Source: Pseudomonadota bacterium (GTDB lineage Bacteria; Pseudomonadota; Gammaproteobacteria; Steroidobacterales; Steroidobacteraceae). Taken from it: a DNA stretch of 64,000 nt. Below the pieces are notes generated by a model. The model was not told where the DNA came from, did no database searches, and saw only the letters and a list, made by a program, of their open reading frames with translations. Each line of letters starts with the position of its first letter. Position 1 is the first letter of the stretch. The translations under genes and the position numbers were made by a program. The stretch covers positions 3,345-67,344 of the forward strand of contig JAKBCE010000022.1 in NCBI GenBank assembly GCA_021808195.1. The letters run 5' to 3'. This document shows, in pieces, positions 7,831 through 57,496 of this stretch.

Positions 7831-7846
7831 AGTGGCAGCCCTCCTG

Positions 7847-39210: not shown

Positions 39211-40355
39211 GCTGCGCTCTCGCGGATCGGACCGGTGCGAAATCGCTTGTACGTCCAGTACGCCGAGCATGCCCCCTCGGGCGAGACCATGCACGAACCC
39301 ATGGGCGTCTCGGGCGTACATACCGTGCCGAACAGACGGCAATCGAGCGGAGTCTTGACGCCCCGCAGCACCGCCCCGCACTGACAGCCGGGCACATCAC
39401 GCCCAACCACATCACGCAGCGCAAAGCGCCGCTCGGCGTCGAATTCTCCGTAACGCTCCTTCAAACGCAATGCGCTGTAGGGCACCTGGCCAAGCCCGCG
39501 CCACTCGAAGCTCTTGCGCAGCTCGAACACCTCCGCGACGTCGCGCTTCGCCACCTCATTACCCTCCAGACGTACCGCGCGGCCGTACTGGTTTTCGACC
39601 TGGTGGCGCCCCTCGTTGACCTGGCGGACCAGCATCAACACCGCCTGCAGCACGTCGAGCGGCTCGAACCCGGCGATGACGACCGGTTTGGCGAACTCCT
39701 CGGCGAAGAACGCGTACGGCTCGCTGCCGATGACCGTACTCACATGCGCCGGACCGATGAATCCATCGAGCCGCACGCGTCCGAATTCGCGCAGGTCGGG
39801 ACTTTCAAGAATGTTCTGAATCGCCGCGGGCGTGAGCACGTGGTTGCAGAACACGGTGAAATTCTCAAGCCCCATTTGCGCTGCGAGCCGCACGACCCGC
39901 GCAGTCGGCGGGGTCGTCGTTTCGAAGCCGATGGCAAACAACACCACTTGCCGGTGCGGTTCGGCGCGCGCCAGCGCAATGGCATCGAGTGCGGAGTAGA
40001 TCATGCGCACGTCGGCACCTGCGGCCTTGGCGCGCAGCAACGAGATGCCCCGCGAACCCGGCACACGCATCAGATCGCCGTAGGTGCACAAGGTGAGGCC
40101 GGGTCGCTCAGCGAGGCGGATCGCGCTGTCGATGCGCGCCACGGGTAGCACGCACACTGGGCAGCCGGGTCCGTGGATCAGACGCACCGAGGACGGCAGC
40201 AGATCCTCCAGGCCGTAGCGGGAGATCGCGTGTGTGTGTCCGCCGCAGAATTCCATGAACCGATAGGTCGCAGACTGACCTGTCGCCTCCGCACTGATCC
40301 GCGCCGCGAGCCGACGCGCCAGCCCGCCGTCACGATATTCCGTCGCGTGCCTCAT
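39207..40355 (-). CDS. hypD: Hydrogenase maturation protein HypD
   Basis: A 382-residue Fe-S scaffold on which Fe(CN)2CO is assembled with HypC. Conserved cysteines are visible in RFMEFCGGHTHAISRYG, HGPGCPVCVLP and the C-terminal 4Fe-4S region CQCGAVL / DCRLFGTVCTPE / GSCMVSPEGACSAYW. Full length. The ATG overlaps the hypC stop (ATGA at 40352-40355), and its own stop overlaps the hypE start. Confidence 0.95.
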   Translation of the reverse strand: MRHATEYRDGGLARRLAARISAEATGQSATYRFMEFCGGHTHAISRYGLEDLLPSSVRLIHGPGCPVCVLPVARIDSAIRLAERPGLTLCTYGDLMRVPGSRGISLLRAKAAGADVRMIYSALDAIALARAEPHRQVVLFAIGFETTTPPTARVVRLAAQMGLENFTVFCNHVLTPAAIQNILESPDLREFGRVRLDGFIGPAHVSTVIGSEPYAFFAEEFAKPVVIAGFEPLDVLQAVLMLVRQVNEGRHQVENQYGRAVRLEGNEVAKRDVAEVFELRKSFEWRGLGQVPYSALRLKERYGEFDAERRFALRDVVGRDVPGCQCGAVLRGVKTPLDCRLFGTVCTPETPMGSCMVSPEGACSAYWTYKRFRTGPIRESAA

Positions 40356-40621
40356 CGCAGCAGCGCCGGCTCGGCATCAGCGGCGCCGCCGAGGTTCGCG
40401 GCCACCTCGCGTAGCGCCTCGAGCGTACGCGCCGCCTCGCGCTCATCGATCACCGTGAGCGCAAATCCCACATGCGCCAGTACGTAATCGCCGGGCTGCG
40501 CCTGCGGCGTGTAGGCGAGGCTGATCTGTTTGACCACCCCGCCGAAATCGACCCGTGCGGCAGGCAGGAGCGGATCGTGGCTGCAGATCTCGATGATTTT
40601 CCCGGGCACCGCCAGACACAT
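40352..40621 (-). CDS. hypC: Hydrogenase assembly chaperone HypC
   Basis: An 89-residue OB-fold chaperone starting MCLAVPGKIIEI with the essential Cys2; VDFGGVVKQISLAYTPQAQPGDYVLAHVGFAL is standard. It carries the Fe(CN)2CO unit from HypD to the large-subunit precursor. The start is ATG 40621 with GAGG upstream; the longer open frame is noncoding. First gene of the minus-strand hyp operon, with a likely sigma-54 promoter at 40645-40660. Confidence 0.94.
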   Translation of the reverse strand: MCLAVPGKIIEICSHDPLLPAARVDFGGVVKQISLAYTPQAQPGDYVLAHVGFALTVIDEREAARTLEALREVAANLGGAADAEPALLR

Positions 40622-40644
40622 CGCGCGAACCTCATGCAGGGCCG

Positions 40645-40660
40645 AGCAGCTACCGTGCCG
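40645..40660 (-). promoter_or_regulatory. Candidate sigma-54 (-24/-12) promoter for hypCDEXBF
   Basis: The minus strand reads CGGCACGGTAGCTGCT against the consensus TGGCACGNNNNTTGCW, with the invariant GG and GC ten bases apart. It lies 24 bp upstream of hypC, leaving a short leader that contains GAGG. Sigma-54 control is well known for uptake hydrogenase operons. Confidence 0.55.
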
Positions 40661-40755
40661 CAGCGGCGCCGCAACCGGAATACGTAACAGCCAGCCATCG
40701 CTAAGCATTGCTACGTATCGACCGCGGCCGCCGCCTCCGCAATGCTGACCGCTTG

Positions 40756-42420
40756 ATGAGCAGGCAACCTCATTGCGGTTCGCGCTGGCTGACGCTGCTG
40801 GCAGCCCTCGCGTGGTTCGCGGTCGGCGCGTTCGCCTCGGCCTCAGCCGCCGCCGCACCCGCGGGTTCGGGCGCTGGCGCGCCCACCAACGCGCAGTGCC
40901 TGGCCTGTCACGCCACCGGCATGATGGGGGCACCGAAGGTCGACCCGGCGGTACTGGCCCATTCGGTCCACGCCGCGGTCCCGTGCGCGAGCTGCCATGC
41001 CTCGATCCGGCAGATTCCCCATCCGATGCATGTGGCGCCGGTCGCCTGCGCCAGCTGCCATCGGGCGGAGGCCCGCGCGTACGCACTGGGGGCACACGCC
41101 ACCGCCAAGGCACACCGCCTGAGTGGGGTCACTCCGCCCACCTGCTCGACCTGCCACGGCACTCATCAGATCCCTCCCGCTGCGAGCAGCGTCTGGCGAG
41201 GCCGAGTGGTCCGCGCCTGCGCGGGATGTCACCGGCGGGCCTACCGGTCCTACATGAGTACCCCGCACGGGCAGGCGGCCGCCCTCGGCCTGAAGCAGGC
41301 ACCGACCTGCATCAACTGCCACGATCCTCACCGGGCGCTGCCCGCGGCCAATCCCCTCTCGCGGCTCTCAGCGGCGAACCGGCTGGCCACCTGCCGCAGT
41401 TGCCACACGGACGCCAACGCTCGGCTGACCGGCTACGAGCCACATCCCCGGCCGGACGACCCGGCACACTCGCGCCTGATTGCCTACACGCATGATTTCA
41501 TGGTGGTGCTCCTGGCCGGTGTGTTCGGCTTCTTTGGCCTGCACACCCTGCTCTGGCTGCAGCGCGGCCTGGTCGGGCGGCTGCGCGGTGAGCTGCCTCC
41601 ATTGCGACGCTTCACCGGCGCGCACATTCAGCGCTTCACCGTCATCGATCGGCTGACGCACCTGGTGGTGATCCTGAGCTTCATGCTGCTCGCACTCACC
41701 GGTCTGGCACTGATGCACCCGCAAACCGGGTGGGGACGGGCGATCGCCGGCTTTTTTGGCGGCGTCGAGTGCATGCGCGTCATTCATCTGGTGAACGGCG
41801 GCATCACCTTCGGCTACTTCATCTTCCATCTGCTCTACCTGGGCTATCGCGCGCTGATCAAGAAGCAGCGCTTCGCGCTACTGGGCCCTGATTCGCTCGT
41901 GCCCACCTGGCATGACATCCTCGACATCGGGCGAAATTTCCGCTGGTTCCTGTATCTGGGGCCGCAGCCGCGCATGGGCCGCTGGACCTATTGGGAGAAG
42001 TTCGATTACTGGGCGGTGTTCTGGGGCGTCGCAATGATCGGCGCATCGGGCTTGATGCTGGCCGCACCGGTGTTCTTCACGCGCTTCATGCCTGGAATCG
42101 CGCTGAATGTCGCCTTCGTCGTGCATTCCGAGGAGGCGCTGCTCGCCACTGGATTCATCTTCATCTTCCACTTCTTCCACAACCACCTGCGGCCGGAGAA
42201 ATTCCCGATCGACGTGTCGATCCTCACCGGCCGGGTGCCGCTCGAGCGCTTCAAGGAAGAGCGGCCGCTGCAATACGAGGCGTTGGTTCGCGACGGCAAG
42301 CTCGAGCAGGCGATCGTGCCGGCTCCCTCGCGCTTCATGACGACGGTATCGGTGCTGTTCGGTATGGCCGTCGTCATCACCGGCGTGGCGCTGATTGCGC
42401 TCGTGATCTTCGCCGGCTGA
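40756..42420 (+). CDS. Heptaheme cytochrome c fused to a cytochrome b membrane domain (CbcL-like quinone oxidoreductase)
   Basis: A 554-residue protein. After an export/anchor segment (WLTLLAALAWFAVGAFASA) come seven CXXCH motifs (CLACH, CASCH, CASCH, CSTCH, CAGCH, CINCH, CRSCH). A membrane domain of about six helices then starts near FMVVLLAGVFGFFGLHTLLW, with candidate heme b histidines in RLTHLVVI, CMRVIHLVNGG, FHLLYLGY, VHSEEALL and FHFFHNHL. The order and composition resemble CbcL of Geobacter, which passes electrons between menaquinol and periplasmic cytochromes. The start is ATG 40756. It is divergent from hypC and lies beside mtrCAB, so it is the likely inner-membrane link of the conduit. 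Confidence 0.78.
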   Translation: MSRQPHCGSRWLTLLAALAWFAVGAFASASAAAAPAGSGAGAPTNAQCLACHATGMMGAPKVDPAVLAHSVHAAVPCASCHASIRQIPHPMHVAPVACASCHRAEARAYALGAHATAKAHRLSGVTPPTCSTCHGTHQIPPAASSVWRGRVVRACAGCHRRAYRSYMSTPHGQAAALGLKQAPTCINCHDPHRALPAANPLSRLSAANRLATCRSCHTDANARLTGYEPHPRPDDPAHSRLIAYTHDFMVVLLAGVFGFFGLHTLLWLQRGLVGRLRGELPPLRRFTGAHIQRFTVIDRLTHLVVILSFMLLALTGLALMHPQTGWGRAIAGFFGGVECMRVIHLVNGGITFGYFIFHLLYLGYRALIKKQRFALLGPDSLVPTWHDILDIGRNFRWFLYLGPQPRMGRWTYWEKFDYWAVFWGVAMIGASGLMLAAPVFFTRFMPGIALNVAFVVHSEEALLATGFIFIFHFFHNHLRPEKFPIDVSILTGRVPLERFKEERPLQYEALVRDGKLEQAIVPAPSRFMTTVSVLFGMAVVITGVALIALVIFAG

Positions 42421-42488
42421 GTTTCCTGCGCGGCCGAGACGAGCGCCGGGCAGCGGGAGACTCGAGCCGAGCCTCCCGTACCGCAGAG

Positions 42489-42764
42489 TCAACGATTGGC
42501 GACACTCGCCCAGTACGCCGCCACGTCCGCCATTTGCACATCGGTCAGTGTCAGTTTCTTCGGGTGCATGACCTTGCCGGCCACGACCTCATGGATCAAC
42601 GCGTCAATTTGCGCCGGAGTCTTACCCTTCCAGGTCGAAGGATCGTGACACGCGCTGCAGACTTGCTTGACGATTGCCCCGCCTGCGGCGATGTCCGCAG
42701 CGTTTACCGCCGTCGGCGCGAGCGCAGTGACTGCCACCGCCATCATCACGAGATGTCTGTACAT
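42489..42764 (-). CDS. Periplasmic monoheme cytochrome c
   Basis: A 91-residue class I cytochrome with a signal peptide (VMMAVAVTALAPTAVNA) and one CSACH motif. A distal Met is likely in KVMHPKKLTLTDVQMADVAAYW. CAGGAGA precedes the ATG. It is convergent with the CbcL-like gene (68 bp between stops). It could shuttle electrons between the inner-membrane cytochrome and the MtrA-type decaheme protein. Confidence 0.85.
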   Translation of the reverse strand: MYRHLVMMAVAVTALAPTAVNAADIAAGGAIVKQVCSACHDPSTWKGKTPAQIDALIHEVVAGKVMHPKKLTLTDVQMADVAAYWASVANR

Positions 42765-42928
42765 GGTGAGTGTCTCCTGACCAATCCACCCGCTTATCTC
42801 ACTCCCGACAGCGATGCCCGCGAATACGTAATTCTGCCTATTTTTGCGCCAATCTGGACATGCGGTTATATACTGGCCGTGTCATTGATCCCAACGGGTC
42901 CGACACTCGACGCAAGGAGCCGGCGCGC

Positions 42929-43912
42929 ATGGCGACACATCTGCACTCGAGCCCACGTGAACCCACTGTTGCGGCGTTATCCGGCTCTTCGCTGAGCGCA
43001 CGCATGCGACGCTTGCTGCTCGCCACCCGGCCGGCGTTTGCACCCGCTTCCCTCGCGCCGGTGCTTGTCGGCAGCGCTTGGGGCGCACATGTCGCGCATC
43101 ACTTCGACGTGGAAGCGGCCGTACTGGCGCTACTCGCCACGGTGTGCGTGCACTTCGGTGCCAATGTGCTCAATGACGTTGCCGACGACCTGTCGGGGGC
43201 AGACCGCGGCAATGAGGGTCGCATTTTCCCTTACACCGGTGGCTCACGATTCATCCAGAACGGCATATTGACCGCTCGCGAGATGACGGTCTGGGGCGCG
43301 ACACTGCTCGGTATCGCCGCGCTGCTCGGGGCCATGCTGGCCGCCGAGCGCGGCCCAGGGGTGATCGTCCTCGGACTGATCGGCGTGACGCTCGCAGTGG
43401 CATATTCCCTGCCGCGCGCACAACTGGCGGCCCGTGGCCTGGGGGAGTTGGCCATTGCGATCGCCTTTGGGCTGTTGCCCGTGACCGGCGCTGCGTGGCT
43501 GCAGAGCGGACGCATCGATGCCGGCAGCCTGCTGATTTCGGTGCCGATCGGGTTGTGGGTCGCCTCTATCTTGCTGATGAACGAAGTGCCCGACCGGGAG
43601 GCTGACGCCCGGGCCGGCAAGGCGACACTGGTCGTGCGCTGGGGCGTTGCGGCCACCCGCTGGGTGTACCTCGGACTGCAGGTCGGCGCCTCGACAGCGC
43701 TCCTCGCGGCGGCCACACAGCGGCTGCTGCCGCTCTGGACGGCCTTCCTGCCGCTGCTCTTACTGCCGGCGGCTTGGCGCGCCGCACGCGCAATCCGTGA
43801 GCCCGCCGACCGTCTCGCCCTGACTGACTCGATTCAGACTACGCTCGTGCTGCAGATGGCCGGCTCGACGCTTGTGCTCGCGGCGGTGCTGTGGAGCATG
43901 CTGGTGCGCTGA
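42929..43912 (+). CDS. UbiA/MenA-family prenyltransferase
   Basis: A 327-residue polytopic prenyltransferase with about eight membrane helices. The first Asp-rich motif is NVLNDVADDLSGADRGNEGR and the second is NEVPDREADARAGKATL, both essential for prenyl diphosphate and Mg binding. RPAFAPASLAPVLVGSAWG at the start is typical of MenA (DHNA octaprenyltransferase). AAGGAG precedes ATG 42929. It sits between cytochrome genes of the electron-transfer island, so it probably supplies a (demethyl)menaquinone pool for the hydrogenase and CbcL-like protein. The assignment to MenA rather than another UbiA member is likely but not certain. Confidence 0.75.
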   Translation: MATHLHSSPREPTVAALSGSSLSARMRRLLLATRPAFAPASLAPVLVGSAWGAHVAHHFDVEAAVLALLATVCVHFGANVLNDVADDLSGADRGNEGRIFPYTGGSRFIQNGILTAREMTVWGATLLGIAALLGAMLAAERGPGVIVLGLIGVTLAVAYSLPRAQLAARGLGELAIAIAFGLLPVTGAAWLQSGRIDAGSLLISVPIGLWVASILLMNEVPDREADARAGKATLVVRWGVAATRWVYLGLQVGASTALLAAATQRLLPLWTAFLPLLLLPAAWRAARAIREPADRLALTDSIQTTLVLQMAGSTLVLAAVLWSMLVR

Positions 43913-43936
43913 GCTGCCGGCTGCGGTGCCGCAGGG

Positions 43937-46075
43937 TCACAGCCGGTACGCGAACGACACCGCAATACTGTCGACGGTATAGCGATACGGTTGGACACCC
44001 AGTGCCAACAGCGCAGGGATCGTGCCCGGCTCGATGCCCTGCAGAGCCCAGTCGCTCGAACCGAACTGATCGCGCCGATAACGCATGCGCAGCGACAGCG
44101 CGCGCGACCATTGGTAATCCGCATCGAGCTTGACGGTATTGAGCGTGGTGGCATCCTGCGGGAATCCCCCGTAGAGACCCACAACCTGCAGCGACGTATT
44201 GCTGCGTGAGCGCGCATGCAGATAATCTGCCTTCAACTTCCAGCGCGTGCTCAGCGCCCAGCTCGCTCCGGTGTCGGCCGTCCAGAAGTACTCCCCTTCC
44301 CATTCTCGCCAGGCAATGCCGGCCGGACTCGCGAGACCGTTCTGTGTCGCCTCGAGGTGCTCGTAGCTGCCCTCCAGATAGGCGCTCAAGCCCTGGGCCG
44401 CAGTCCAGCTCAGCGTCGAGGAGAGCTCTCGCTGTCGGCCATCCCTCAGCCCAAACTGCGACAGCCGGTAAGCATCGGTAGCTGCCGAACCCTGCAGCGA
44501 CCAGGCGAGGCGCGCGTCAATCGCCCAAGTCGCCCGCACCTGCAGAAACTCGTGGTCGCGCGGGGCATAGTCGTAGGCGAGCAGCAACGGGTTCTCCCCG
44601 AGGGGCAGGGCTGCCGCGTTGAATCGGGAAGCGTCGCGACGGGAGCTGCCACCCTTGACCGTGACATTCCACGCCGCGCGCGGCACGAGGGTGAGTTGTC
44701 CCCATGCCTGCAATTCACTGAGCGAGCTCAATACCTGACCCACACCGTAATGGGTATGGACATAGTATCCACCGGCGCTCACGCGGGCCCAGCGGAACAG
44801 GCGGTAATCGGCGCTGCCGGTGAGCCGAGCCCGATCCTCACCGTAACGGGGCGTCACAGCCGTGCCCCCGGGCAGTGTGTCGGTGACGACGTACGGGATC
44901 GCGAATACCGCCGTGTGATCGTCACGACCATCGTATGTGGCCCGTCCGCGCAGCGCGAGCCGTGCCGCGGGCCTGAGCGCAAGACCCAGCGCATAATGCG
45001 TCAGATCAATATCACCGGGCAGTGAGCCCGGCAGCAGCACCGGGTCGGCCGCGAGCGTACTGCCGGGGATGAACGTGCCCTCCTGGGCGAGGCGCCCGAC
45101 AGAGCCCAGATAGGTGAGCACACCGGACCACAGCGGCACCGTCACCTCACCCGACACCGAGGCCTGTTGCAGATTGTTGTCGGGCGCCCGGGACAACAGC
45201 CCCGAGCTTGAGCCCGGGACCAGCGGCGCGTAAGGATTGGCAAAGAGCAGCCCGTCGAGCCGGTCGTCGAACCAGGAGCCTGAGTACGCAATGCGCATGC
45301 TGGCACCGGCGTCGGACCAGAGCGCACCGGCACGCACGTCGTTGGTGACGTAGTCGAGCGGTTCAGGCAACTGCAGCGCCTCGGTCAGAAAGCTCGCACC
45401 GGTCGCGTCCGTGCCGGTCCGCTCGGCGTGGCTGAATTGCCCGAACAGTGTCCAAACGCGACTCGTGAAGTAACTGCCGCTCAGCGACACCGTACGCCGA
45501 TTCGATTCAATCGGCACCGCCGCAAGGCTCGACTGCAACGCCGTCATGCCGCTCGTCGCGTTGGCCGCGACCCAGGTGCTCGGCAGCACGAGTGCCCCCT
45601 CGGCAGCGCTTCGGTACGGGGTACGCGCATCGTCATATTGCCGGAACGGCTGCCCCTGGTACCGCAGGTGAATTTCGTACCGACCCTCCTGACCTGCCGT
45701 GACCGCAAGGTGTCTCGAGGCGAAGCCGAGATGATCTGCTTCGAAACGAACGTAGGCGCCAGTACTCGTGCGCCAGCGACCCACGAGCGACCCCTGGGCA
45801 TACGTCCCGGTGCGATCGGCGCCGCTGTAGCGGCCGGAGGCGAAGTTGGCGCCGGCGGCGTAAACCGCGCCGACCTCCACTCTCGCCTTGGCACCGGTGT
45901 AAAAGACACACAGTTTGCACTTCCAGGCACTCGTATCCGGCCGCGGCGACTCGGCTCGCGCCATCGACGCCGCGAGCACCGCCGCCACGACCGCCGCGAT
46001 CGCCGCAGAGGCCATTGAGCGAGCGCGGGAGTCTCGGACCCGAATCGCCTGCCGTGCCGTGCGCCGCCGCCTCAT
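43937..46075 (-). CDS. mtrB: MtrB/PioB-family outer-membrane beta-barrel of the electron conduit
   Basis: A 712-residue exported protein. Near the mature N-terminus it has the CXXC (WKCKLCVFYTGAKARVEVG) characteristic of MtrB/PioB. The remainder is a series of alternating strands with large loops, as expected for a 26-28-stranded porin, ending YTVDSIAVSFAYRL. The barrel sheathes the MtrA-type decaheme protein across the outer membrane. It is the last gene of the mtrC-mtrA-mtrB operon, 9 bp after mtrA. Confidence 0.88.
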   Translation of the reverse strand: MRRRRTARQAIRVRDSRARSMASAAIAAVVAAVLAASMARAESPRPDTSAWKCKLCVFYTGAKARVEVGAVYAAGANFASGRYSGADRTGTYAQGSLVGRWRTSTGAYVRFEADHLGFASRHLAVTAGQEGRYEIHLRYQGQPFRQYDDARTPYRSAAEGALVLPSTWVAANATSGMTALQSSLAAVPIESNRRTVSLSGSYFTSRVWTLFGQFSHAERTGTDATGASFLTEALQLPEPLDYVTNDVRAGALWSDAGASMRIAYSGSWFDDRLDGLLFANPYAPLVPGSSSGLLSRAPDNNLQQASVSGEVTVPLWSGVLTYLGSVGRLAQEGTFIPGSTLAADPVLLPGSLPGDIDLTHYALGLALRPAARLALRGRATYDGRDDHTAVFAIPYVVTDTLPGGTAVTPRYGEDRARLTGSADYRLFRWARVSAGGYYVHTHYGVGQVLSSLSELQAWGQLTLVPRAAWNVTVKGGSSRRDASRFNAAALPLGENPLLLAYDYAPRDHEFLQVRATWAIDARLAWSLQGSAATDAYRLSQFGLRDGRQRELSSTLSWTAAQGLSAYLEGSYEHLEATQNGLASPAGIAWREWEGEYFWTADTGASWALSTRWKLKADYLHARSRSNTSLQVVGLYGGFPQDATTLNTVKLDADYQWSRALSLRMRYRRDQFGSSDWALQGIEPGTIPALLALGVQPYRYTVDSIAVSFAYRL

Positions 46076-46084
46076 CGTGCCTCC

Positions 46085-47071
46085 TCAGCGCATCAGCGCT
46101 TGCCCCGACGGACTGTTGGATCCATGGATGCGCGAATGACAGTTCACGCAACCGCCGAGGAGCAGATAAGGATTGGGCATGCCGCCGGGCAGCCCCTGCG
46201 GTCCATAGGGCACCGAGGGATGACCGGCCGCATCGTGGCATTGCTGGCAGAGGATCGTCGGCTGCTCGGTCAGCAGCGCCGCCACGACCGAGCCGTGCGG
46301 CGCATGGCAGTCGAGGCAGTTGTCACTCACCGGCTGATGTTCCCAGAGGAACGGCCCGCGCATGCGCGCATGGCAGCTCGTGCAGGTCTCATTGACCGTT
46401 TCCTTCACGAGCATCGCCGGACCGAGCGAGCCATGCGGGTCATGACAGGACGCGCAACTCATCGTGCCGTCCGGTACCGGGTGATGATAGGGCTTGCGGA
46501 ACTGCGCAACGACTCCCGCATGGCAATTGGCGCACACTGCCGCCTGCGTCGCCGGCGCTCGCACCGGATCGCTCGCGCCGTGCAGATGATGGCAGTCGGC
46601 ACAGCTGACCTGGTTTTGCGCATGAGCGCTGAGCCGCCACACGTGTCCGACGGTGCTGCGATGACAGCTGAGACACATCGCATTCTGGCGCAACACCGGG
46701 GTTGGCGAGCGCGCGCCAAAGACCACGATCCCAGCTGGCTTCATGCCCATGGCCTTGACGTGGGCTCCGCCAGGCCCATGGCAGGCCTCACACTGCAGTC
46801 CGCCATGCCCGAAGGGGCTACGCGGGTTGCCCGGTTGCGCGTGCGGACTGCGAAAGATCGCCGTCACCTTCGCGTCCATGCCGTGGCAGGCCAGACAGGT
46901 ATCGGCACCTTTGGCGCTATAGCCGAGGGCCGTCGGACTGTTGGATGCTGCGGGCGGCAATTGAGCAGGTCCGACCGCCTGCGCAGCGGCGCGCATCGGG
47001 GAAAGGCCGGTCACGCACACGATCGCCAGCACGATCCCGAGCAGCACGCGCCGGGTCCGCAACGTACTCAT
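46085..47071 (-). CDS. mtrA: MtrA/DmsE-family periplasmic decaheme cytochrome c
   Basis: A 328-residue exported cytochrome with exactly ten CXXCH motifs (CLACH, CEACH, CLSCH, CADCH, CANCH, CASCH, CTSCH, CLDCH, CQQCH, CVNCH) in the DmsE/MtrA spacing. The signal segment is VLLGIVLAIVCVTGLSPMRAAAQA. I use ATG 47071; the GTG at 47086 is possible. It forms the heme wire inside the MtrB barrel. It lies 18 bp after mtrC and 9 bp before mtrB. Confidence 0.92.
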   Translation of the reverse strand: MSTLRTRRVLLGIVLAIVCVTGLSPMRAAAQAVGPAQLPPAASNSPTALGYSAKGADTCLACHGMDAKVTAIFRSPHAQPGNPRSPFGHGGLQCEACHGPGGAHVKAMGMKPAGIVVFGARSPTPVLRQNAMCLSCHRSTVGHVWRLSAHAQNQVSCADCHHLHGASDPVRAPATQAAVCANCHAGVVAQFRKPYHHPVPDGTMSCASCHDPHGSLGPAMLVKETVNETCTSCHARMRGPFLWEHQPVSDNCLDCHAPHGSVVAALLTEQPTILCQQCHDAAGHPSVPYGPQGLPGGMPNPYLLLGGCVNCHSRIHGSNSPSGQALMR

Positions 47072-47089
47072 GGGGTACCCGTTCACGGC

Positions 47090-50031: not shown

Positions 50032-51343
50032 CGGATAGCATCGACGGTTGCGAGCGCTCCTCGCGGATGTGCAGCCGCATCGTATCCCGCACCCGATCCA
50101 CCGCGGTGAAGAATTCCGCCATCATCAACATCCAGCAGTACATGCCCCGGTCGGTGAGCCGGATGGCATCCGGATCGTAGCGCAGAGCGCCGATCAGCCC
50201 CATGGCGGCCAATTCAGGCGCCAGGCGCCACCAGAACTGCGCGCCGTATTTCGCCTGGATGTGGGCATACGGCAGAGTGAGGCCAAACAGCCCGACCAGG
50301 AAGTCATAGCGCATGCGCTGGCGAGGGGTGAGAACGTTGCAGCGGGTGATCGCGGGCTTGCCCGCGGCGATAGCCTCGCGATAGTTACGCAGCGAGAACG
50401 ATGTGGCGTAGAGTGCTCCATCGAGGTAACTGAACGCACCGCTGCCGACGCCTACGTAATCGCTCGCCTGGGTGATGTACTCATCAATCGGCCGTGCCAC
50501 ATCCTGCGGCGCGACGCGGGAGAAGCACCATGCCGAGGACGGCTGATACACCGGCCGCATGCCACGCAGAATCTGCTGATAGAACGCATAACGCCGCTCC
50601 ACGCCGGCGCGACCCAGACGCTTGCGGATGTTTCGCTCGGTCGAGGTGAAGCGCATGAGAGGATAGAATGACACCTGCTCGACTCCGAGCAGATGGATGG
50701 TGTCAATGTCACGGCCCACGGACTCCAGAGTCTGAGTCGGGAAATTGAACATCATGTCGACATTCAACGTCGGGAATCGACCGCGCACCGCGGCAAGACG
50801 CTCTGCGGTCTGCGCGGCGCTGCCGTAATGCTGGTAACGGCCCATCTGCCGAAGCAGGTCGTCATCGAAGCTCTGCACACCGACCGACAGGCGGTCGATG
50901 CCGGCGTCGCTCAGCCTCTCGAGCGTCTCAGGGTTGAGATGATTTGGATTGGTCTCGACCGAGACCCAGCGGATCGGCCAGAGCGAGCGGATCAGCTCGA
51001 GGGTCCGCGCGAGCTCCTGCGGCAGCACCGTCGGGGTGCCGCCGCCGATGTACACATCGGTAAACTGATAGCCACGCTCGGCGTACAGTCGAATCTCCCG
51101 GCGCACCGCCTCGAAATAGGCCTGTGCCTTGGGCAGCCGGAACTGGACCCGATGAAACGAGCAGTATGGACAGAGCGATTCACAGAACGGCACGTGCACA
51201 TAGAGCTGGCAGGGTCGCTTCGGCCGCGGCGGCAAGTCGTGAAGATCGGTCGGATCGCAGCGTACCGAGCGCCCGTATTCACGCCGCAACAGCGCCAGCA
51301 GCGGCTTGTCGAAAGCTGGTGCGCTCGAAATCCCCTCAGGCAT
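49961..51343 (-). CDS. HemN/HemW-like radical SAM protein in the hydrogenase operon
   Basis: A 460-residue radical SAM protein. CESLCPYCSF is the CX3CX2C cluster motif; VYIGGGTPTVLP, VSVETNPNHL and LSVGVQSFDDDLLRQMGR match the HemN/HemW group, and a HemN C-terminal region (MRYDFLVGLFGL) is present. The final 25 residues read as low-complexity and may be extra. It overlaps hypA by 8 bp and closes the hydrogenase operon. A role in heme supply for Isp1 and the nearby cytochromes, or in hydrogenase assembly, is possible. I know of no established function for it in this context. Confidence 0.75.
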   Translation of the reverse strand: MPEGISSAPAFDKPLLALLRREYGRSVRCDPTDLHDLPPRPKRPCQLYVHVPFCESLCPYCSFHRVQFRLPKAQAYFEAVRREIRLYAERGYQFTDVYIGGGTPTVLPQELARTLELIRSLWPIRWVSVETNPNHLNPETLERLSDAGIDRLSVGVQSFDDDLLRQMGRYQHYGSAAQTAERLAAVRGRFPTLNVDMMFNFPTQTLESVGRDIDTIHLLGVEQVSFYPLMRFTSTERNIRKRLGRAGVERRYAFYQQILRGMRPVYQPSSAWCFSRVAPQDVARPIDEYITQASDYVGVGSGAFSYLDGALYATSFSLRNYREAIAAGKPAITRCNVLTPRQRMRYDFLVGLFGLTLPYAHIQAKYGAQFWWRLAPELAAMGLIGALRYDPDAIRLTDRGMYCWMLMMAEFFTAVDRVRDTMRLHIREERSQPSMLSVTPPPADSDPDRFRSGQFSQRTS

Positions 51344-51692
51344 CGCTCCGCCTCGTCAGCTCCACCCGTGCGAGCAGCAGTTCCTCCCCACTCAGCACCT
51401 GAACCTGCCAGTGTCCGCAGTGCGCACAGATCAGGCGGTTCGCCGCCGCCTGCGACTGCCCGCCACAACGCTCGCAGCGCACCTGCAGCGGTGCCGGCTC
51501 GAGGATCAGCTTCGAGCCATCGGCGATCGTTCCGGCGCTGGCGAGCGGATAGGCGCTTTTGAGCAACTGCGGCTCCACGCCCGCGAGTGGGCCGATGCGC
51601 ACGGTCACCGCCACCACCCGGTCGGCTGCGGCCGCACGCGCAACCCGCTCCACTTCCCGCATCAAACCCTGACAGATGGCCAGTTCATGCAT
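51336..51692 (-). CDS. hypA: Hydrogenase nickel chaperone HypA
   Basis: A 118-residue protein beginning MHELAICQGLM with the Ni-binding His2. Its zinc site is CERCGG...CAHCGH. TVRIGPLAGVEPQLLKSAYPLA is the conserved core. It delivers Ni to the large subunit with HypB. It lies 30 bp after the large-subunit gene, away from the other hyp genes at 33-40 kb. Confidence 0.93.
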   Translation of the reverse strand: MHELAICQGLMREVERVARAAAADRVVAVTVRIGPLAGVEPQLLKSAYPLASAGTIADGSKLILEPAPLQVRCERCGGQSQAAANRLICAHCGHWQVQVLSGEELLLARVELTRRSDA

Positions 51693-51722
51693 AGTCCGCG
51701 CCCGGTGCGCCGCTGCGGGCGT

Positions 51723-53465
51723 TCACACCACCCGCAACTCGAGCAGCTCCTCGCCCGAGGGGTCACTGAGATGCACCGCGCAGGCAATACACGGATCGAA
51801 GCTGTGAATGGTGCGTAGAATCTCCAGCGGCTGAGTCGGCACCGCCAGCGGTTGTCCCTTGAGCGAGGCCTCGTAGGGGCCTTCCTGACCGAACGGATCG
51901 CGCGGTCCGGCATTCCAGGTGCTGGGCACGACGGCCTGGTAATTGCTGATCTTGCCCTGCTCGATCACCACCCAATGCGCCAGCGCACCCCGCGGCGCCT
52001 CCGTGAAGCCGACCCCCTGGGCGTGTGCGGGCCAGCGCTCCGGCTCCCAGAGGCGCTCGTTGAAGGTCCGCACGTCCCCGGCGCGGATGTTCTTCATCAG
52101 CTCCTCGTACCAGCCCGACATGGCATCGGCAATCAGTTTTGCCTCGAGGGTCCGCGCCGCGGTGCGACCGAGCGTCGAGAACAACGCCTGGATCGGCACA
52201 TTCAGCTGGGCAAGCGCCTTATCGGCAAGTTCGCGCGTCGCTGCGTCACCGCTCGCGTAGAGCATCAGTACCCGCGCCAGAGGACCGACTTCCATCGCAT
52301 GACCGTTCCAGCGTGGTGATTTCAGCCACGAATAGCTCGCGCTCGGATCGACGTGCGCATAGGGCGGCGTCGGGCCCGTGTAGTGCAAATTCGTCTGACC
52401 GTGGTAGGGGTGCAATCCGGAGTCTTTGCCCGTCGTATAGTCGTACCAGGAGTGCGCCACGAACTCCTTGATCTGCGCCGGGGCGTTCAGATCGACCTCA
52501 TGAATGTGGCTCAGATCGCGCCCCAGAATCGCCCCGCGCGGGATCATCATCTGTTTCGGGTCGGGCAGGCCGCGCGCCGGGAAGTCTCCGTAGCACAGGA
52601 AGTTGCCCACGCCCTCGCCGTGACCCGGCGTCAGCCAGTCCTTGTAGAACGAGGCAATGGCGAGCGTATCGGGCAGGTAGACCTGCGCGACGAAGCTCTG
52701 CATCTCGGCGATGATCTGCGCCACCCGCGCAAGGCCGATCGTGTTGACCGCCGTGGTCCCCGTGCCCTCACCCTCGTGCACGCTGATTCCCACCGGGCTG
52801 CCACCGACGACAAAGTTCGGGTGCGGATTCTTGCCGCCGAAGATGGCATGCAGTTCCGCCGCGCGACGCTGCCAGGCGAGCGCCTCGAGGTAGTGCGCAA
52901 CCGCCATCAAGTTCGCCGCCGGCGGCAATTTGTACGCCGGGTGTCCCCAGTACGCATTGGCGAATATGCCCAGCTGGCCCGACTCGACGAGCGTCTTGAC
53001 CCGTTGCTGCACGTCTGCGAAATACCCGGGAGAAGACTTCGGAAAGGTGGAAATCGATTGCGCGAGCGTGGAGGTCTCCTTCGGATCGGCCGACAGCGCC
53101 GAGACGACATCCACCCAGTCGAGTGCGTGCAGATGATAGAAGTGCATGACGTGATCGTGCACAAACTGCGCGCCGATCATCAGATTGCGGATCAGATTTG
53201 CGTTTGGCGGAATCTCGTACTGCAGTGCGTCCTCGACCGCACGCACCGAGGCAATGCCGTGCACCAGCGTGCATACGCCGCAGATGCGCTGGGCAAACGC
53301 CCATGCATCCCGTGGATCACGGTCACGAAGGATGATCTCGACGCCACGAACCATGGTGCCTGAGCTCGTCGCGCTCGTGATGACGTTGCCGTCCATCTGC
53401 GCCTCGATGCGCAGATGTCCCTCGATGCGCGTGATCGGATCGACCACTACCGTTTGCGTGCTCAT
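51723..53465 (-). CDS. hynL: NiFe hydrogenase large subunit (Isp-type, group 1e-like)
   Basis: A 580-residue catalytic subunit. The Ni ligands are in L1 (RICGVCTLVHG) and L2 (FDPCIACAVH). After the L2 histidine, 15 residues (LSDPSGEELLELRVV) form the C-terminal extension removed by the endopeptidase, consistent with an active maturation path. The start is ATG 53465 (MSTQTVVVDPITRIEGHLRIE) after GAGAGG; the longer frame is isp2 shadow. Together with Isp1 and Isp2 between it and the small subunit, this matches the hynS-isp1-isp2-hynL plan of Thiocapsa and Allochromatium. It oxidises H2 (or evolves it) on the outer face of the inner membrane. Confidence 0.94.
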   Translation of the reverse strand: MSTQTVVVDPITRIEGHLRIEAQMDGNVITSATSSGTMVRGVEIILRDRDPRDAWAFAQRICGVCTLVHGIASVRAVEDALQYEIPPNANLIRNLMIGAQFVHDHVMHFYHLHALDWVDVVSALSADPKETSTLAQSISTFPKSSPGYFADVQQRVKTLVESGQLGIFANAYWGHPAYKLPPAANLMAVAHYLEALAWQRRAAELHAIFGGKNPHPNFVVGGSPVGISVHEGEGTGTTAVNTIGLARVAQIIAEMQSFVAQVYLPDTLAIASFYKDWLTPGHGEGVGNFLCYGDFPARGLPDPKQMMIPRGAILGRDLSHIHEVDLNAPAQIKEFVAHSWYDYTTGKDSGLHPYHGQTNLHYTGPTPPYAHVDPSASYSWLKSPRWNGHAMEVGPLARVLMLYASGDAATRELADKALAQLNVPIQALFSTLGRTAARTLEAKLIADAMSGWYEELMKNIRAGDVRTFNERLWEPERWPAHAQGVGFTEAPRGALAHWVVIEQGKISNYQAVVPSTWNAGPRDPFGQEGPYEASLKGQPLAVPTQPLEILRTIHSFDPCIACAVHLSDPSGEELLELRVV

Positions 53466-53476
53466 GAAAGCCTCTC

Positions 53477-54793
53477 TCAGCCGCCCTGCAGGTGCTCGGC
53501 CACGAGCTCGAGCAGGCTGCCCGGCGTCAGTTCCCAATTGAAGCGCTGCTTGCCGTCATCGAACGTGCGGCGGCAGTCCGAGCAACTGGTGAGAAACGTC
53601 TGTGCGCCGGTCTGGTCGATGTCGTGGAACTTCTCCTCCACGACCCGATGCCGCAAGGGCGCGGCGCGTTCGATATCGAACACGCCGCCGCCGCCGCCGC
53701 AGCAGATGTTGTAGCCGATGTGCCGCACGGTCTCGCGCGGCTCGATCCCCATGGCGCGCATCAGTTGGCGCGGCGCGGCGGTGATTCCGCCCTTGCGCAC
53801 CAGCTGACACGGGTCGTGAAATGCGGTTGCACCGACCTGCGCCGGGCGCAGGCGCAGCCGGCCGGCCTCGAGTGCCTCGGCAAGGTACTCGGTGATGTGC
53901 AGCACCTTGAAGGGCAGCGGCTTGCCGATCAGCTCGGCCGCCTCCCAGCGCAATGCCGTATAGGCATGACCGCACTCCGGGACGATCAGCACCTTGGCCT
54001 CGCAGGCCACCGCCTGATCGATCAGCCGACGGCTGATCTCGCGCTGCCAATCGCGACTGCCAGCATAGTAGCCGTAGTTCTCCGCGATCAGCCCGTCGCT
54101 GCGGAACGTGCAGTCGGCCTTCAGATGGGCCATCACGCGCACCAGGGCGGCGACGGCGGCCGGATAATGCTCAATGTCGGTGCGCGGCACGGTGAGCAGG
54201 ATCTGCGCTTTGGGCTTATCGAGCGGGATGTCCACATTGAACTGCCGGCCGATGGCGAGCAGCTTGTCCCGGTACGGCTCCTCCGAGGGCTCCGGCTGAC
54301 CGGTGCGCCGTTGATGCGCCGCCTTTTCGTACAGCTCCTTGGGCGCCAGACCGGCCTCGAACATACCGCGGCGGGCTTGTTCGATGAGCTCGGCAATGTC
54401 GATTCCCATCGGACACATCAGCGAGCAGCGCCCGCAGAGATTGCAGCTGTCGTAGAGCAGGTGCTGCCAGCGCTCGAGTTCCTTCCCGGTGATCTTCGCC
54501 TTCAGGCCAAACCAGCGGAACATCGGCGCGAACGCCGAGGCTTCCCGCTTGAACACCTGCTTGAACGGCTCGACCTTCAGCACCGGGGTGTACTGCGGAT
54601 CTTCCGTAGCGATATAGAAATGGCACGCGTCGGCGCACATGCCGCAGTGAACACACGCCTCCAGGCGCAAAGCGCTCAATGCACCGATTTCCCGCGCGAA
54701 GCCTCGCATCGCACCTGCGACTCGCTCGCGCTCCCCGATGTTCGCCTCCTCCGGCGCGAGACTGGCATGGAATTGAACCGGTGAGGTGTTCAC
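53477..54793 (-). CDS. isp2: Isp2, HdrD-like Fe-S electron-transfer subunit
   Basis: A 438-residue protein with two 4Fe-4S motifs (CVHCGMCADACH and CNLCGRCSLMCP) and two CCG domains (AFHDPCQLVRKGG; YNICCGGGGGV and SCSDCRRTF), as in HdrD/GlpC-type proteins. It links the hydrogenase to Isp1 and the quinone pool on the cytoplasmic side. The start is a GTG overlapping the isp1 stop (GTGA at 54790-54793). It lies 11 bp before the large-subunit start. Confidence 0.9.
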   Translation of the reverse strand: MNTSPVQFHASLAPEEANIGERERVAGAMRGFAREIGALSALRLEACVHCGMCADACHFYIATEDPQYTPVLKVEPFKQVFKREASAFAPMFRWFGLKAKITGKELERWQHLLYDSCNLCGRCSLMCPMGIDIAELIEQARRGMFEAGLAPKELYEKAAHQRRTGQPEPSEEPYRDKLLAIGRQFNVDIPLDKPKAQILLTVPRTDIEHYPAAVAALVRVMAHLKADCTFRSDGLIAENYGYYAGSRDWQREISRRLIDQAVACEAKVLIVPECGHAYTALRWEAAELIGKPLPFKVLHITEYLAEALEAGRLRLRPAQVGATAFHDPCQLVRKGGITAAPRQLMRAMGIEPRETVRHIGYNICCGGGGGVFDIERAAPLRHRVVEEKFHDIDQTGAQTFLTSCSDCRRTFDDGKQRFNWELTPGSLLELVAEHLQGG

Positions 54794-55449
54794 GATGGCG
54801 CCCCCTTTCTGGTCATGACATAGCCATCCACCGCCCGCGTCGGGAAGATGTAGAAGGCGTGCATGAGCTTGCCGAACGGATACCAGATGAGCAGCAGATC
54901 GAAGCTGAGAATGTGCAGACCGAGGATGGTGTGATACGGCGCACCGACGTGCGCGGTCGCCATCAATCCGCTCACCAGCAGCAGGGCCACCACGAACCAG
55001 CTGAAGAAGTCATCAAAATTGGACAGTCGACGCAGCACCGGGTGACCCAAGCGCCGCGCGAGCACCGCGACGAACAGCGTGAGGGTGATGACGGCGAAGA
55101 TCGTCACCACGCTGTTCGGCAGCGCTGGCCAACGCGCACCAATGAAACTGCCAAAGAAGATGATGTGCGGCGCAAACAGCAAAATTACGATGAACAGGCC
55201 GATGTGATAGGAGTACCCGAGCGCCTCGCCGGTCACGGTACGTTTGATGAACTCCGGGTGTGGCCAGGAGCGTGAGCCGGTGCCCTTCAGGCCGGCGAGC
55301 AGCGCCGCCCCGACGCTGCGGCGCGGTTCGCTCAGGATGCGCTTGTGGCGCAGCAGCAGGACATTGACGATCCGCCAGACGATGCCAAGGATGAAGATGA
55401 TGAATGCGGCCTTCAGTGCCGGGCCGCGCGCGAAGTCGACGAGGTCCAT
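54790..55449 (-). CDS. isp1: Isp1, membrane cytochrome b subunit
   Basis: A 219-residue NarI-like diheme cytochrome b with five hydrophobic segments, including AAFIIFILGIVWRIVNVLLL, GYSYHIGLFIVILLFAPHIIFF and FFSWFVVALLLVSGLMATAHVG. Histidines in the membrane segments (YHIGL, APHII, ATAHVG, LGLHIL) are candidates for heme ligands. It exchanges electrons between Isp2/hydrogenase and quinone. It starts 4 bp after the small-subunit stop. Confidence 0.9.
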   Translation of the reverse strand: MDLVDFARGPALKAAFIIFILGIVWRIVNVLLLRHKRILSEPRRSVGAALLAGLKGTGSRSWPHPEFIKRTVTGEALGYSYHIGLFIVILLFAPHIIFFGSFIGARWPALPNSVVTIFAVITLTLFVAVLARRLGHPVLRRLSNFDDFFSWFVVALLLVSGLMATAHVGAPYHTILGLHILSFDLLLIWYPFGKLMHAFYIFPTRAVDGYVMTRKGAPS

Positions 55450-55453
55450 GGGC

Positions 55454-56578
55454 CTACTCCTCGTTGCGGGGTTCGGATTGCTGTGGGGGCTGGCGCTGAT
55501 AGCGCTTGATGCGCTGTCGGGCGAGCATGACGCTGCCGAGACCGATTGCCGCTCCCGCGACTGCCGCGCCGGCTGCGATGTCCCCGGCCTGCGCAGGGCT
55601 CACCTCACCCGCCTTGCCCCAGCGCGGCGAGGGGATGGGACTGTAGAAGCTGCCCCGGTCCCAGAAGTCCGGCTCTGCGCAGCCGAGGCAGGGATGGCCC
55701 GACTGGATCGGGAAGCTCACCGCATTGTTCCATTTGAGCGTGGCGCAGGCATTGTAGGTGGTCGGGCCCTTGCAGCCGAGTTCGTACAGGCACCAGCCGC
55801 TGCGCGCCCCCTCGTCATCGAAGGTCTTGGCGAACTTGCCCTGGTCGTAGAAGGGCCGTCGGTAGCATCGGTCGTGAATGCTGTTGCCGTAAAAGACCGT
55901 GGGGCGCAGATGCGCATCGAGATCGGGCACCCGACCGCTACTGACGTACTGCAGCAGCGTACCGGCGATCACCTCCGGAATCGGCGGACAACCCGACACA
56001 TTGACCACCGGTTTGTCCGGCACCAGCGTCGAGATGGCGCGCGCCCCGGTCGGGTTGGGGTCGGCGAAGGGCAGCCCGCCGAAGGAAGCGCAGGTGCCGA
56101 CACAGACCACGGCTGCGGCACCCTTGGCGCACTCGGTGAGAATGTCGAGCCCCGTACGCCCCGCAGCGCAGTGATACACCCCACCGTCGCCCGTCGGCAC
56201 CGCCCCGTCGACCACCAACAGATACTTACCGTAATGCGAGCGCATCGCCTGCTCGCGCGCCTGCTCCGCCTGTGCACCGGCCGCTGCCATCAGCGTATCG
56301 TCGTAGTCGAGCGAGATCACATTGAAGATCAGATTCTCGATGGTCGGTGCAAATGAACGGGTGAATGACTCGAGGCATCCGGTGCATTCCTGAAACGACA
56401 GGTAGATCACCGAGGGCCGCTGTGCCGAGCGCAATTGCGAGGCCAGCGCACGGGCGGCGAGTGGCGGCAGGGCGAGCAGCGAGGCCATCGCGGTGCAGTA
56501 CTTGAAGAAGCTGCGGCGACTGACGCCATGCCGATCGAGCAGCTCGCCGATGGTGGGTTCCAAATCAGGTCGTCCCAT
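55454..56578 (-). CDS. hynS: NiFe hydrogenase small subunit
   Basis: A 374-residue Fe-S subunit with a Tat signal (HGVSRRSFFKYCTAMASLLALPP). Cluster cysteines are visible in FQECTGCLES, GTCASFGG, SGCPPIPE, the medial-cluster segment HDRCYRRPFYDQGKF, YELGCKGPTTYNACA and GHPCLGCAEPDFWD. A C-terminal helix (AGAAVAGAAIGLGSVMLARQRI) may anchor it in the membrane. The start is ATG 56578; it overlaps the hupH-like gene by 14 bp. Twin-arginine export carries the folded heterodimer out of the cytoplasm. Confidence 0.94.
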   Translation of the reverse strand: MGRPDLEPTIGELLDRHGVSRRSFFKYCTAMASLLALPPLAARALASQLRSAQRPSVIYLSFQECTGCLESFTRSFAPTIENLIFNVISLDYDDTLMAAAGAQAEQAREQAMRSHYGKYLLVVDGAVPTGDGGVYHCAAGRTGLDILTECAKGAAAVVCVGTCASFGGLPFADPNPTGARAISTLVPDKPVVNVSGCPPIPEVIAGTLLQYVSSGRVPDLDAHLRPTVFYGNSIHDRCYRRPFYDQGKFAKTFDDEGARSGWCLYELGCKGPTTYNACATLKWNNAVSFPIQSGHPCLGCAEPDFWDRGSFYSPIPSPRWGKAGEVSPAQAGDIAAGAAVAGAAIGLGSVMLARQRIKRYQRQPPQQSEPRNEE

Positions 56579-57029
56579 GGGTTGTCCCCCCGTGTGCTGC
56601 GCAAAGGGGCGCCAGAACCGCACGCAGCCGCTCTGCGCCCCGAACGAGATCCGCATCGGCGGCAGCGAGCATCTCCGGCACACGCGCCACCTCGATCAGC
56701 GTCACGAGCAGCACGCCGTCCGAATCGCGGTGCTCACTCCACCAAACGCCGGGAATCGATGTCTCGCGGATGTGACTCTCACCGTTGGCCTGGATGCGGA
56801 TATCGACTTCCCCCGCCCCGAGAGTCTCGATAAGGCGCATCCGCTCGGTGGGGCTGAGAGGCAGACTGCGCACGTCGATCGCGCCCGGCTCGCCATGCTG
56901 AACGAGTCGCTCAAGGAGCACGGCGAGTTCGGTGAGAATTGCGGCCATGCCGCCGCCGACCATGCCTTGAGCGTCTAGCACGGAACCGATCGGCTCGACA
57001 CAGACTGGAATGTGCCCCAGGGTACTCAT
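56565..57029 (-). CDS. HupH/HyaF-like hydrogenase expression protein
   Basis: A 154-residue protein. LTELAVLLERLVQHGEPGAIDVRSLPLSPTERMRLIETLGAGEVDI and the following IHIRETSIPGVWWS-like segment (SHIRETSIPGVWWSEHRDSDG) are typical of the HupH/HyaF family, which assists maturation of the small subunit. Start ATG 57029 forms an ATGA overlap with the protease stop. It precedes the small-subunit gene. Confidence 0.82.
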   Translation of the reverse strand: MSTLGHIPVCVEPIGSVLDAQGMVGGGMAAILTELAVLLERLVQHGEPGAIDVRSLPLSPTERMRLIETLGAGEVDIRIQANGESHIRETSIPGVWWSEHRDSDGVLLVTLIEVARVPEMLAAADADLVRGAERLRAVLAPLCAAHGGTTHGTT

Positions 57030-57496
57030 AGCAGCCACCGATCGAGCAACCGCAACGCCTCGCTGGCGGCAACTTCAACGCCTGCTCTGACAGGCGGGGT
57101 GGGCTCGAGCCCCCAGCCGACCTCGGCGGCCTGGATACAGATGAGCGCTCGGCGCACCGGCAATGCATCCTGCAGGCGCGCCATCGCGAGCAGATCATCG
57201 AGGCCCACCTCATGAACTGACCGTCGGCGCGAGCCGTCGGCGAGAAAGTCATCCATCTCTTTGCTCTCGAGGCAGCGGACAGTCCCTGGCTCGGCGCCGA
57301 AATTCGCGGCATCAAACACGATGAGGTTCTCGGCATCCTCCAGATAGGGCAACAGCGTAAAACTGAGCGTTCCGGCATCGATAACACGAATGCCCTCGGC
57401 AGATTTCAGCCGCTGTGTGAGCGCCTGCGCAGCGTGCACGCCGGCACCATCATCTGTCAGGAGTATGTTGCCGATACCCAATACGACCGAGTCCAT
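57026..57496 (-). CDS. hynD: Hydrogenase maturation endopeptidase (HyaD/HupD family)
   Basis: A 156-residue aspartic-type Ni-dependent endopeptidase: VVLGIGNILLTDDGAGVHAAQAL carries the first metal Glu/Asp position, and DAGTLSFTLLPYLEDAENLIVFDAANFG the second Asp region. It removes the C-terminal tail of the large subunit once Ni is inserted. It is the first gene of the operon, which is unusual because the protease commonly follows the structural genes. Start ATG 57496; a GTG 4 codons upstream is possible. Confidence 0.85.
   Translation of the reverse strand: MDSVVLGIGNILLTDDGAGVHAAQALTQRLKSAEGIRVIDAGTLSFTLLPYLEDAENLIVFDAANFGAEPGTVRCLESKEMDDFLADGSRRRSVHEVGLDDLLAMARLQDALPVRRALICIQAAEVGWGLEPTPPVRAGVEVAASEALRLLDRWLL

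Follow-up and report, generated by a model that had tools for sequence, protein, structure and literature searches.

How might electrons taken from hydrogen inside a cell envelope reach an acceptor outside the cell, and can the genes for such a route lie together as one unit? The question is raised by a stretch of 64,000 nucleotides (the window) from a Pseudomonadota bacterium of the Steroidobacteraceae (assembly GCA_021808195.1, contig JAKBCE010000022.1, positions 3,345 to 67,344), in which an island at 40,352–57,496 encodes an Isp-type [NiFe]-hydrogenase next to the outer-membrane conduit MtrCAB. The island was read in all frames, and the proteins were scored against Pfam and NCBIfam. The parts named in the original prediction, i.e. 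a hydrogenase with Isp1 and Isp2, a prenyltransferase, a CbcL-like cytochrome, a monoheme cytochrome c and MtrCAB, were all recovered by protein models, counts of the heme-binding motif CxxCH and sequence motifs, but the inventory had left out a radical S-adenosylmethionine (radical-SAM) enzyme, a SnoaL-like protein, hoxX and the hyp genes. The association of hydrogenase and MtrCAB is real, modular and recurrent in a group of bacteria that are mostly uncultured, and the island probably encodes a modular chain that moves electrons outwards from H2.

The hydrogenase is complete, and its minus-strand genes follow the order hynS-isp1-isp2-hynL of the Isp type, which corresponds to HydDB group 1e. 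The small subunit HynS (55,454–56,578; TIGR00391, 425.4 bits) carries a twin-arginine translocation (Tat)-type motif (RRSFFK) and the common proximal motif ECTGC, here within ECTGCLES. Isp1 (54,790–55,449) had no Pfam match; histidines H82, H95, H179 and H197 are invariant in 48 homologue sequences, and the top eight fold matches of its structural model (predicted local distance difference test, pLDDT, 91.3) were all NarI and all weak (E 0.006–0.02); Isp1 is accordingly a predicted membrane b-type cytochrome, with a NarI-like fold weakly indicated. Isp2 (53,477–54,793) is an HdrD/DsrK-like protein with FeS and CCG domains (PF02754 and Fer4 matches), for which the DsrK, TmcB and HmcF models remained below their cut-offs. 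The large subunit HynL (51,723–53,465) has its closest solved structure in 3myr (E 2.5e-273), which we take to be the enzyme of Allochromatium vinosum. In gene order and in this nearest structure the locus resembles the HynSL/HydSL enzymes of Thiocapsa and Allochromatium. Loci of Thiorhodococcus and Imhoffiella (L047, L060) show the same gene order but differ in that no match to the MtrC, MtrA, MtrB or CbcL-like protein of the window was found within at most 10 kilobases (kb) on each side.

The conduit genes also lie on the minus strand and are predicted to specify a full conduit, with a decaheme MtrA, an MtrB barrel and a decaheme surface lipoprotein MtrC (10 + 10 hemes). MtrC (47,090–49,501) belongs to the OmcA/MtrC family, with ten CxxCH motifs, a lipobox (LGAC), a TIGR03507 score of 492.6 bits (cut-off 209.3) and OmcA (4lmh) as its best solved match. 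The periplasmic MtrA (46,085–47,071) has ten CxxCH motifs and scores 279.8 bits on TIGR03508 (cut-off 192.2), and the outer-membrane MtrB (43,937–46,075), with an N-terminal CKLC, scores 301.7 bits on TIGR03509 (cut-off 240.05) and 345 bits on PF11854. Chains A and B of 6r2q, presumably from Shewanella baltica, are the best solved matches of MtrA and MtrB, respectively; the likeness to Shewanella MtrCAB covers all three parts and the 10 + 10 hemes. In Shewanella, the electron donor to MtrCAB is CymA and the hydrogenases are encoded elsewhere; in the window, by contrast, mtrCAB adjoins genes for a hydrogenase, a CbcL-like cytochrome, a MenA-like protein and a radical-SAM enzyme. A plasmid origin of MtrC was rejected, there being one distant match (21% identity) among 72,556 plasmid records.

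Between the conduit and the hyp genes lie two further cytochromes. The CbcL-like protein (40,756–42,420, plus strand) is a predicted inner-membrane fusion of seven c-hemes (7 CxxCH; PF14522, PF14537) followed by a cytochrome b part, which gave weak, FdnI-like formate-dehydrogenase-gamma matches (33–36 bits, below cut-offs). Geobacter CbcL likewise has a c-heme domain fused to a b-type membrane domain, and it is on this architecture that the window protein is likened to CbcL of G. sulfurreducens; as it has seven CxxCH motifs, not the nine hemes of CbcL, it is named only CbcL-like. Related proteins carry 7, 9, 11 or more CxxCH, and three homologues (58–64% identity) are labelled Steroidobacteraceae. 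Large multiheme CbcL-like proteins with up to 19 CxxCH were seen in clusters near mtrC in G048 (L168, 3353–10749) and G040 (L165, 10388–13907). The second cytochrome (42,489–42,764, minus strand) is a class I monoheme c-type protein (1 CxxCH; PF13442, 27 bits, at cut-off), presumably a periplasmic carrier, whose gene is kept in L153, L155, L156 and L163.

Is the neighbourhood of hydrogenase and conduit peculiar to this genome? The original prediction had suggested looking for HynSL-Isp and MtrCAB within 25 kb of each other, and this pairing is present in several genomes, with its order conserved. A genome scan for HynL gave 80 loci, compared over up to 10 kb on each side, many of which end early at contig ends; MtrC lay near HynL in four of these (L001, L003, L004, L056); beside HynL in L005 lay one end of a CbcL-like gene. 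MtrC was sought in 50 of the 80 source genomes and passed its cut-off in 11, on the HynL contig in 7 of them: about 1–6 kb away in G001, G003, G004 and G045, and about 24–34 kb away on the same strand in G040, G048 and G037 (in G037 as a piece at a contig end). It lay on another contig in G002, G005, G050 and G038, where the HynL contigs of G002 and G005 are shorter than 10 kb and that of G050 is 53 kb long. A survey then covered 200 genomes, drawn from a larger group, of the family of the nearest relative (G001), with MtrC called by its model cut-off and HynL-like proteins at E 1e-60. MtrC was present in 35 and HynL-like proteins in 44. The two occurred together in 30 genomes, whilst 5 had only MtrC, 14 only HynL and 151 neither of them, which gives an odds ratio of 65, not corrected for kinship. 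HynL was 1.2–10.5 kb from an MtrC match in 10 of the 200, at 11 places (G227, G001, G152, G214 with two loci, G003, G212, G004, G070, G216 and G244), although the MtrC on contig 64 of G214 and the HynL of G244 are fragments at the ends of contigs. MtrC is enriched in the family, given that only 8 of 274 genomes in a class-wide draw, G001 included, passed the MtrC cut-off.

The neighbourhood is more than chance, since gene order is kept in related genomes. The full order from the hydrogenase to the hyp genes recurs in G227 and G001; G152 retains HynL, the radical-SAM gene and everything from mtrCAB to hypB, and G237 has the same parts as far as its short contigs extend, split by a contig break inside the radical-SAM gene. 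In the window, G227 and G001, the Isp-type hydrogenase sits in a slot between the radical-SAM gene and a gene for a PAS hybrid histidine kinase (57,915–59,558 in the window, plus strand, divergent from hupD; PAS, HisKA, HATPase and receiver domains). In G214 (contig 34) and G216, this slot holds a different hydrogenase (HynL 59%), followed by hypA, the radical-SAM gene and mtrCAB; the enzyme has no Isp1 or Isp2 match and is accompanied by a HyaC-type cytochrome b (TIGR02125, 169 bits in G214; 76% identical in G216). At L161 (5122–9631, contig 34 of G214), DCAGNTES replaces the ECTGCLES of the window beside the HyaC-type cytochrome b and a monoheme c, and the enzyme might, at a guess, be group 1f/1h-like. 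Contig 64 of G214 (L199) carries the Isp-type version, from the end of isp2 through hynL, hypA, the radical-SAM gene and snoaL to the start of mtrC, and G214 thus appears to hold two hydrogenase-MtrCAB units with different hydrogenase types (L161 and L199). The whole run from hynS to mtrB is co-directional in G214b, where 158 bases separate the radical-SAM gene from mtrC. In G235 and G183 the PAS kinase gene is followed by the radical-SAM gene, mtrCAB, snoaL and the MenA-like, CbcL-like and hypC-hypD genes. The kinase gene flanks swapped (L161) and empty (L200, L201) slots alike and is present in L153. In the MtrA tree, the window, G214b, G216b, G235, G183 and four others form one clade (100/100), and the HynL tree splits G214b, G216b and G183 from the Isp type (100/100); the outgroup rows L013, L060, L010 and L063 include upstream letters with one or two stops. 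The conserved core is formed by the radical-SAM gene, mtrCAB and the MenA-like gene. A second architecture (G212, L003, L004, L056) has a NapC/NirT-family tetraheme gene between hynL and mtrC on the opposite strand (PF03264, 201–209 bits in G212, L004 and L056; the L003 copy is 82% identical to that of G212) and gave no CbcL-like match in the DNA compared around the locus. L056 additionally has small tetraheme cytochromes and a UbiA-family gene (PF01040, 89 bits) between hynL and mtrC, the latter scoring 46.9 bits on the menA model, under the cut-off.

Which quinone could connect the two ends? Ubiquinol is a poor donor for the low-potential hemes of Mtr proteins, so a naphthoquinone would be expected; where the pH is acidic and Fe(III) is soluble, ubiquinol could be enough, and the isolate names of some relatives presumably refer to acid-mine sites. 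The UbiA-family prenyltransferase of the window (42,929–43,912, plus strand; PF01040, 110.3 bits) passes the MenA equivalog model (TIGR00751, 122.9 bits against 102.15), and to this extent its earlier designation as MenA-like holds; the reading attached to it needs revision, as searches of the tested relatives turned up no known menaquinone pathway. In a tree, the canonical MenA of G212 pairs with that of E. coli (97/98, on long branches) and falls outside the clade of the window protein. This clade (at least 47% identity) occurs in 24 of the 200 family genomes, 21 of which have MtrC above cut-off, and in 15 of the 24 a distance of 3.2–5.3 kb separates its gene from an MtrC match, which is a fragment in G074 and G003. 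In G040 (titled Woeseiaceae), G037, G048, G050 and G345, a MenA-like gene (45–50% identity) lies 0.3–3.5 kb from hynL; the prenyltransferase is therefore associated with MtrCAB in some genomes and with the hydrogenase in others.

The pathway was sought in the genomes of relatives. Among genomes with the MenA-like clade, none passed the cut-off for MenD (0 of 19), MqnC (0 of 19, seven with weaker matches), MenB (0 of 21) or MqnA/D (0 of 9). MenD passed in 5 of 61 genomes (G004, G212, G045, G038, G142). For MenB, 33 genomes were covered, of which the first four just named passed; G142 has a partial match of 323 bits (cut-off 342.7). In 14 control genomes MenD passed in seven, MenB in seven, MqnC in two and MqnA/D in four, which shows that the models are able to detect these enzymes. 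The canonical menA, menD and menB of G212 (contig 51; L198, L157) were observed 14–21 kb before the hynL of its Isp/NapC-like/mtrCAB locus. The futalosine pathway was rejected as the origin of the substrate of MenA. The MqnC model has matches in 16 of 61 genomes (178–332 bits), all short of its cut-off of 428.1 and 13 in frames of at least 800 amino acids, and we take them to be CofH-like parts of F420 proteins, not MqnC. Seven of the 19 clade genomes have such matches (G213, G162, G155, G164, G003, G172, G075); the window-type genomes G227, G001, G152, G237, G235 and G183 have none, and G214 reaches 38 bits only. The frames of 800–1300 amino acids that hold these matches in G162, G213, G155, G164 and others presumably reflect F420 biosynthesis of the FbiC type in the family of G001. 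The MenA-like protein is, unexpectedly, an 'orphan', which often has a MenK-like enzyme close by and perhaps salvages 1,4-dihydroxy-2-naphthoate (DHNA), by analogy with Lactiplantibacillus plantarum. Extracellular electron transfer (EET) in that species is a Gram-positive, Ndh2-based process without MtrCAB. The portion of the report consulted describes putative DHNA prenylation genes kept without the rest of the pathway and exogenous DHNA used for EET (PMC10746273), a precedent for an orphan prenylation step with imported DHNA.

The radical-SAM gene (49,961–51,343, minus strand) encodes a HemN-like protein of the MenK/MqnK/CgdH2 type (PRK08629, 444.2 bits, cut-off 355). Of the five motifs of the menaquinone-methyltransferase (MenK/MqnK) class given in the available text of PMC10320005, three are exact and two have one change each (QxTxYPL as QVSFYPL, NxFxxxxY as TSFSLRNY), and the HemW motif is absent from the protein; the likeness to MenK/MqnK and to CgdH2 of Campylobacter jejuni is one of motifs. 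According to the same text (PMC10320005), ferrochelatase passes heme to CgdH2, a heme chaperone of that clade, and heme delivery for the many heme groups of the island would be, by analogy, a serious alternative role for the enzyme. The gene occurs in 22 of the 200 family genomes, 21 of them with MtrC above cut-off, and in 14 genomes its distance from MtrC is 0.4–5.5 kb; G003, G004 and G212 gave no match to it. The SnoaL-like gene (49,666–50,031, plus strand, divergent from mtrC; PF12680, 50.5 bits) has a frame open from 49,519, with a start picked by eye, and homologues lie near mtrC in many of the relatives' loci fetched. The new element is the MtrCAB-linked pair of an orphan MenA-like and a radical-SAM protein. 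A tentative extension, possible rather than probable in our judgement, is that the MenA-like protein, a MenK-like methyltransferase and SnoaL form a dedicated quinone kit at MtrCAB loci, building a low-potential methylated naphthoquinone, probably from the DHNA of neighbours, in bacteria that otherwise have ubiquinone only; the hydrogenase would then be an exchangeable cassette feeding H2 into a private quinone line.

From the known roles of these families, from which the order of carriers, the direction and the quinone are inferred, the following chain can be proposed. Periplasmic HynSL would split H2, and the electrons would pass through membrane-bound Isp1 (b-type, NarI-like) and Isp2 to the quinone pool. 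A low-potential quinol would reduce the CbcL-like cytochrome or, in other lineages, the NapC/CymA-type tetraheme, from which electrons would move, with the monoheme cytochrome as a possible intermediate, to MtrA within its MtrB barrel and on to MtrC at the surface. MtrC would then reduce ferric minerals, humics or some other acceptor outside the cell. The MenA-like and MenK-like proteins would probably supply or adjust a naphthoquinone otherwise missing in a ubiquinone-type bacterium.

What was claimed earlier as a dedicated link between H2 and the outside is borne out in so far as the linkage recurs and another hydrogenase type occupies the slot of the first in some relatives, but several observations weigh against it. 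HynL and MtrC lie on different contigs in 20 of the 30 family genomes with both; among these 20, the two are probably joined across the contig break in G237, and G108 additionally has a second HynL 70 kb from MtrC. In G038 both contigs are long, so that at least this genome is truly unlinked. The slot in G235 and G183 lacks structural hydrogenase genes, and their HynL matches are on other contigs. At the class level, linkage was not borne out among the seven MtrC genomes besides G001: four have HynL (69–72% identity), each on another contig, G326 has a distant HynL (51%) on the same contig 0.57 Mb from MtrC, and two have none. The association is inflated by kinship, and the genomes surveyed are mostly fragmentary. 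In the window, the 459 bases between the radical-SAM gene and mtrC hold snoaL on the opposite strand, so the hydrogenase genes and mtrCAB are not necessarily co-transcribed. Lastly, the low-potential quinone is only a proposal, as no known route to menaquinone was found in the relatives with this MenA.

An unlikely alternative is that electrons flow inwards, MtrCAB taking them from Fe(II), reduced humics or a partner and passing them through the CbcL-like protein to quinone, with the hydrogenase as a parallel donor or H2 release valve; the shared lithotrophic use would explain the location. Nothing in the sequence fixes the direction. A monoheme c beside the conduit is also known in Fe(II) oxidisers, and HoxX, which serves aerobic synthesis of the CO ligand, suggests enzyme assembly with O2 present; the NapC/CymA-type tetraheme of the sister loci is, on the other hand, typical of outward flow. 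Some Gallionellaceae metagenome-assembled genomes with mtoAB also encode MtrC, read as iron oxidation in the part of PMC10734462 seen. It is slightly more improbable that the genes are neighbours without a joint pathway, the hydrogenase feeding ubiquinone and O2 and MtrCAB serving organic donors within a redox island controlled by a single regulator, the PAS kinase: separate contigs in 20 of 30 relatives, the empty slot, HoxX and genes for aromatic degradation of an aerobic kind in the window fit such a gathering, but it hardly explains the exchange of one hydrogenase for another, the co-directional run in G214b or the hyp genes that persist at the G235 and G183 locus after the structural genes are gone.

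If the outward chain from H2 is correct, the island is a dedicated path, defined at the level of genes, by which Gammaproteobacteria other than Shewanella pass electrons from H2 to minerals or electrodes, and HynL beside MtrC becomes a marker for finding it. It also raises the testable question of what drives low-potential outer-membrane conduits in bacteria in which no menaquinone pathway is detected; if DHNA is salvaged by the orphan MenA-like protein, these communities would rely for their extracellular respiration on quinone precursors that one species obtains from another. The combination had been put forward as not previously described, and in agreement with this no description of this hydrogenase-MtrCAB cluster was found in the open-access literature searched, a body outside which most subscription papers fall. 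Woeseiaceae with mtrCAB and a hydrogenase are reported in PMC12175321, the accessible part of which makes no mention of a linkage of the two.

The remaining genes concern hydrogenase maturation and layout. The minus-strand run comprises hupD (57,026–57,496; maturation protease, PF01750, 82.6 bits), hupH (56,565–57,029; hydrogenase expression, PF04809, 98.2 bits), hynS, isp1, isp2, hynL, hypA (51,336–51,692; PF01155, 102.3 bits, overlapping the radical-SAM gene by 8 bases) and the radical-SAM gene, with intergenic gaps of at most 80 bases; mtrC and mtrA are separated by 18 bases and mtrA and mtrB by 9. The island is not one operon, as three internal genes, the SnoaL-like (between the radical-SAM gene and mtrC), MenA-like and CbcL-like genes, are on the plus strand. 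A promoter scan gave no sigma-70-like site, and terminators were at chance level. After the monoheme c gene, the unit reaches left beyond the island on the minus strand through hypC (40,352–40,621; PF01455, 86.6 bits), hypD (39,207–40,355; PF01924, 494.1 bits; 88–91% in L154–L156), hypE (38,167–39,210; PF02769, PF00586; order kept in L154–L156), hoxX (36,404–38,159) and hypB (35,596–36,411; PF02492 CobW/HypB/UreG, 73.7 bits; homologues at the same place in L154, L155 and L156) to hypF (33,252–35,618; TIGR00143, 687 bits, cut-off 466.1). The frame of hoxX, whose formyl-transferase and enoyl-CoA hydratase parts were scanned separately, is interrupted near 37,148, where a run of G has one base too many, and hoxX is in a single frame in L154 and L155; the break is likely an assembly error or a young lesion. 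Further away, positions 6373–18442 of the window, where a PcaK-like transporter match stays below its cut-off, hold catabolic genes of the aromatic/lignin type, including an RPE65-type dioxygenase, a vanillate-demethylase-like Rieske enzyme and a tannase/feruloyl esterase.

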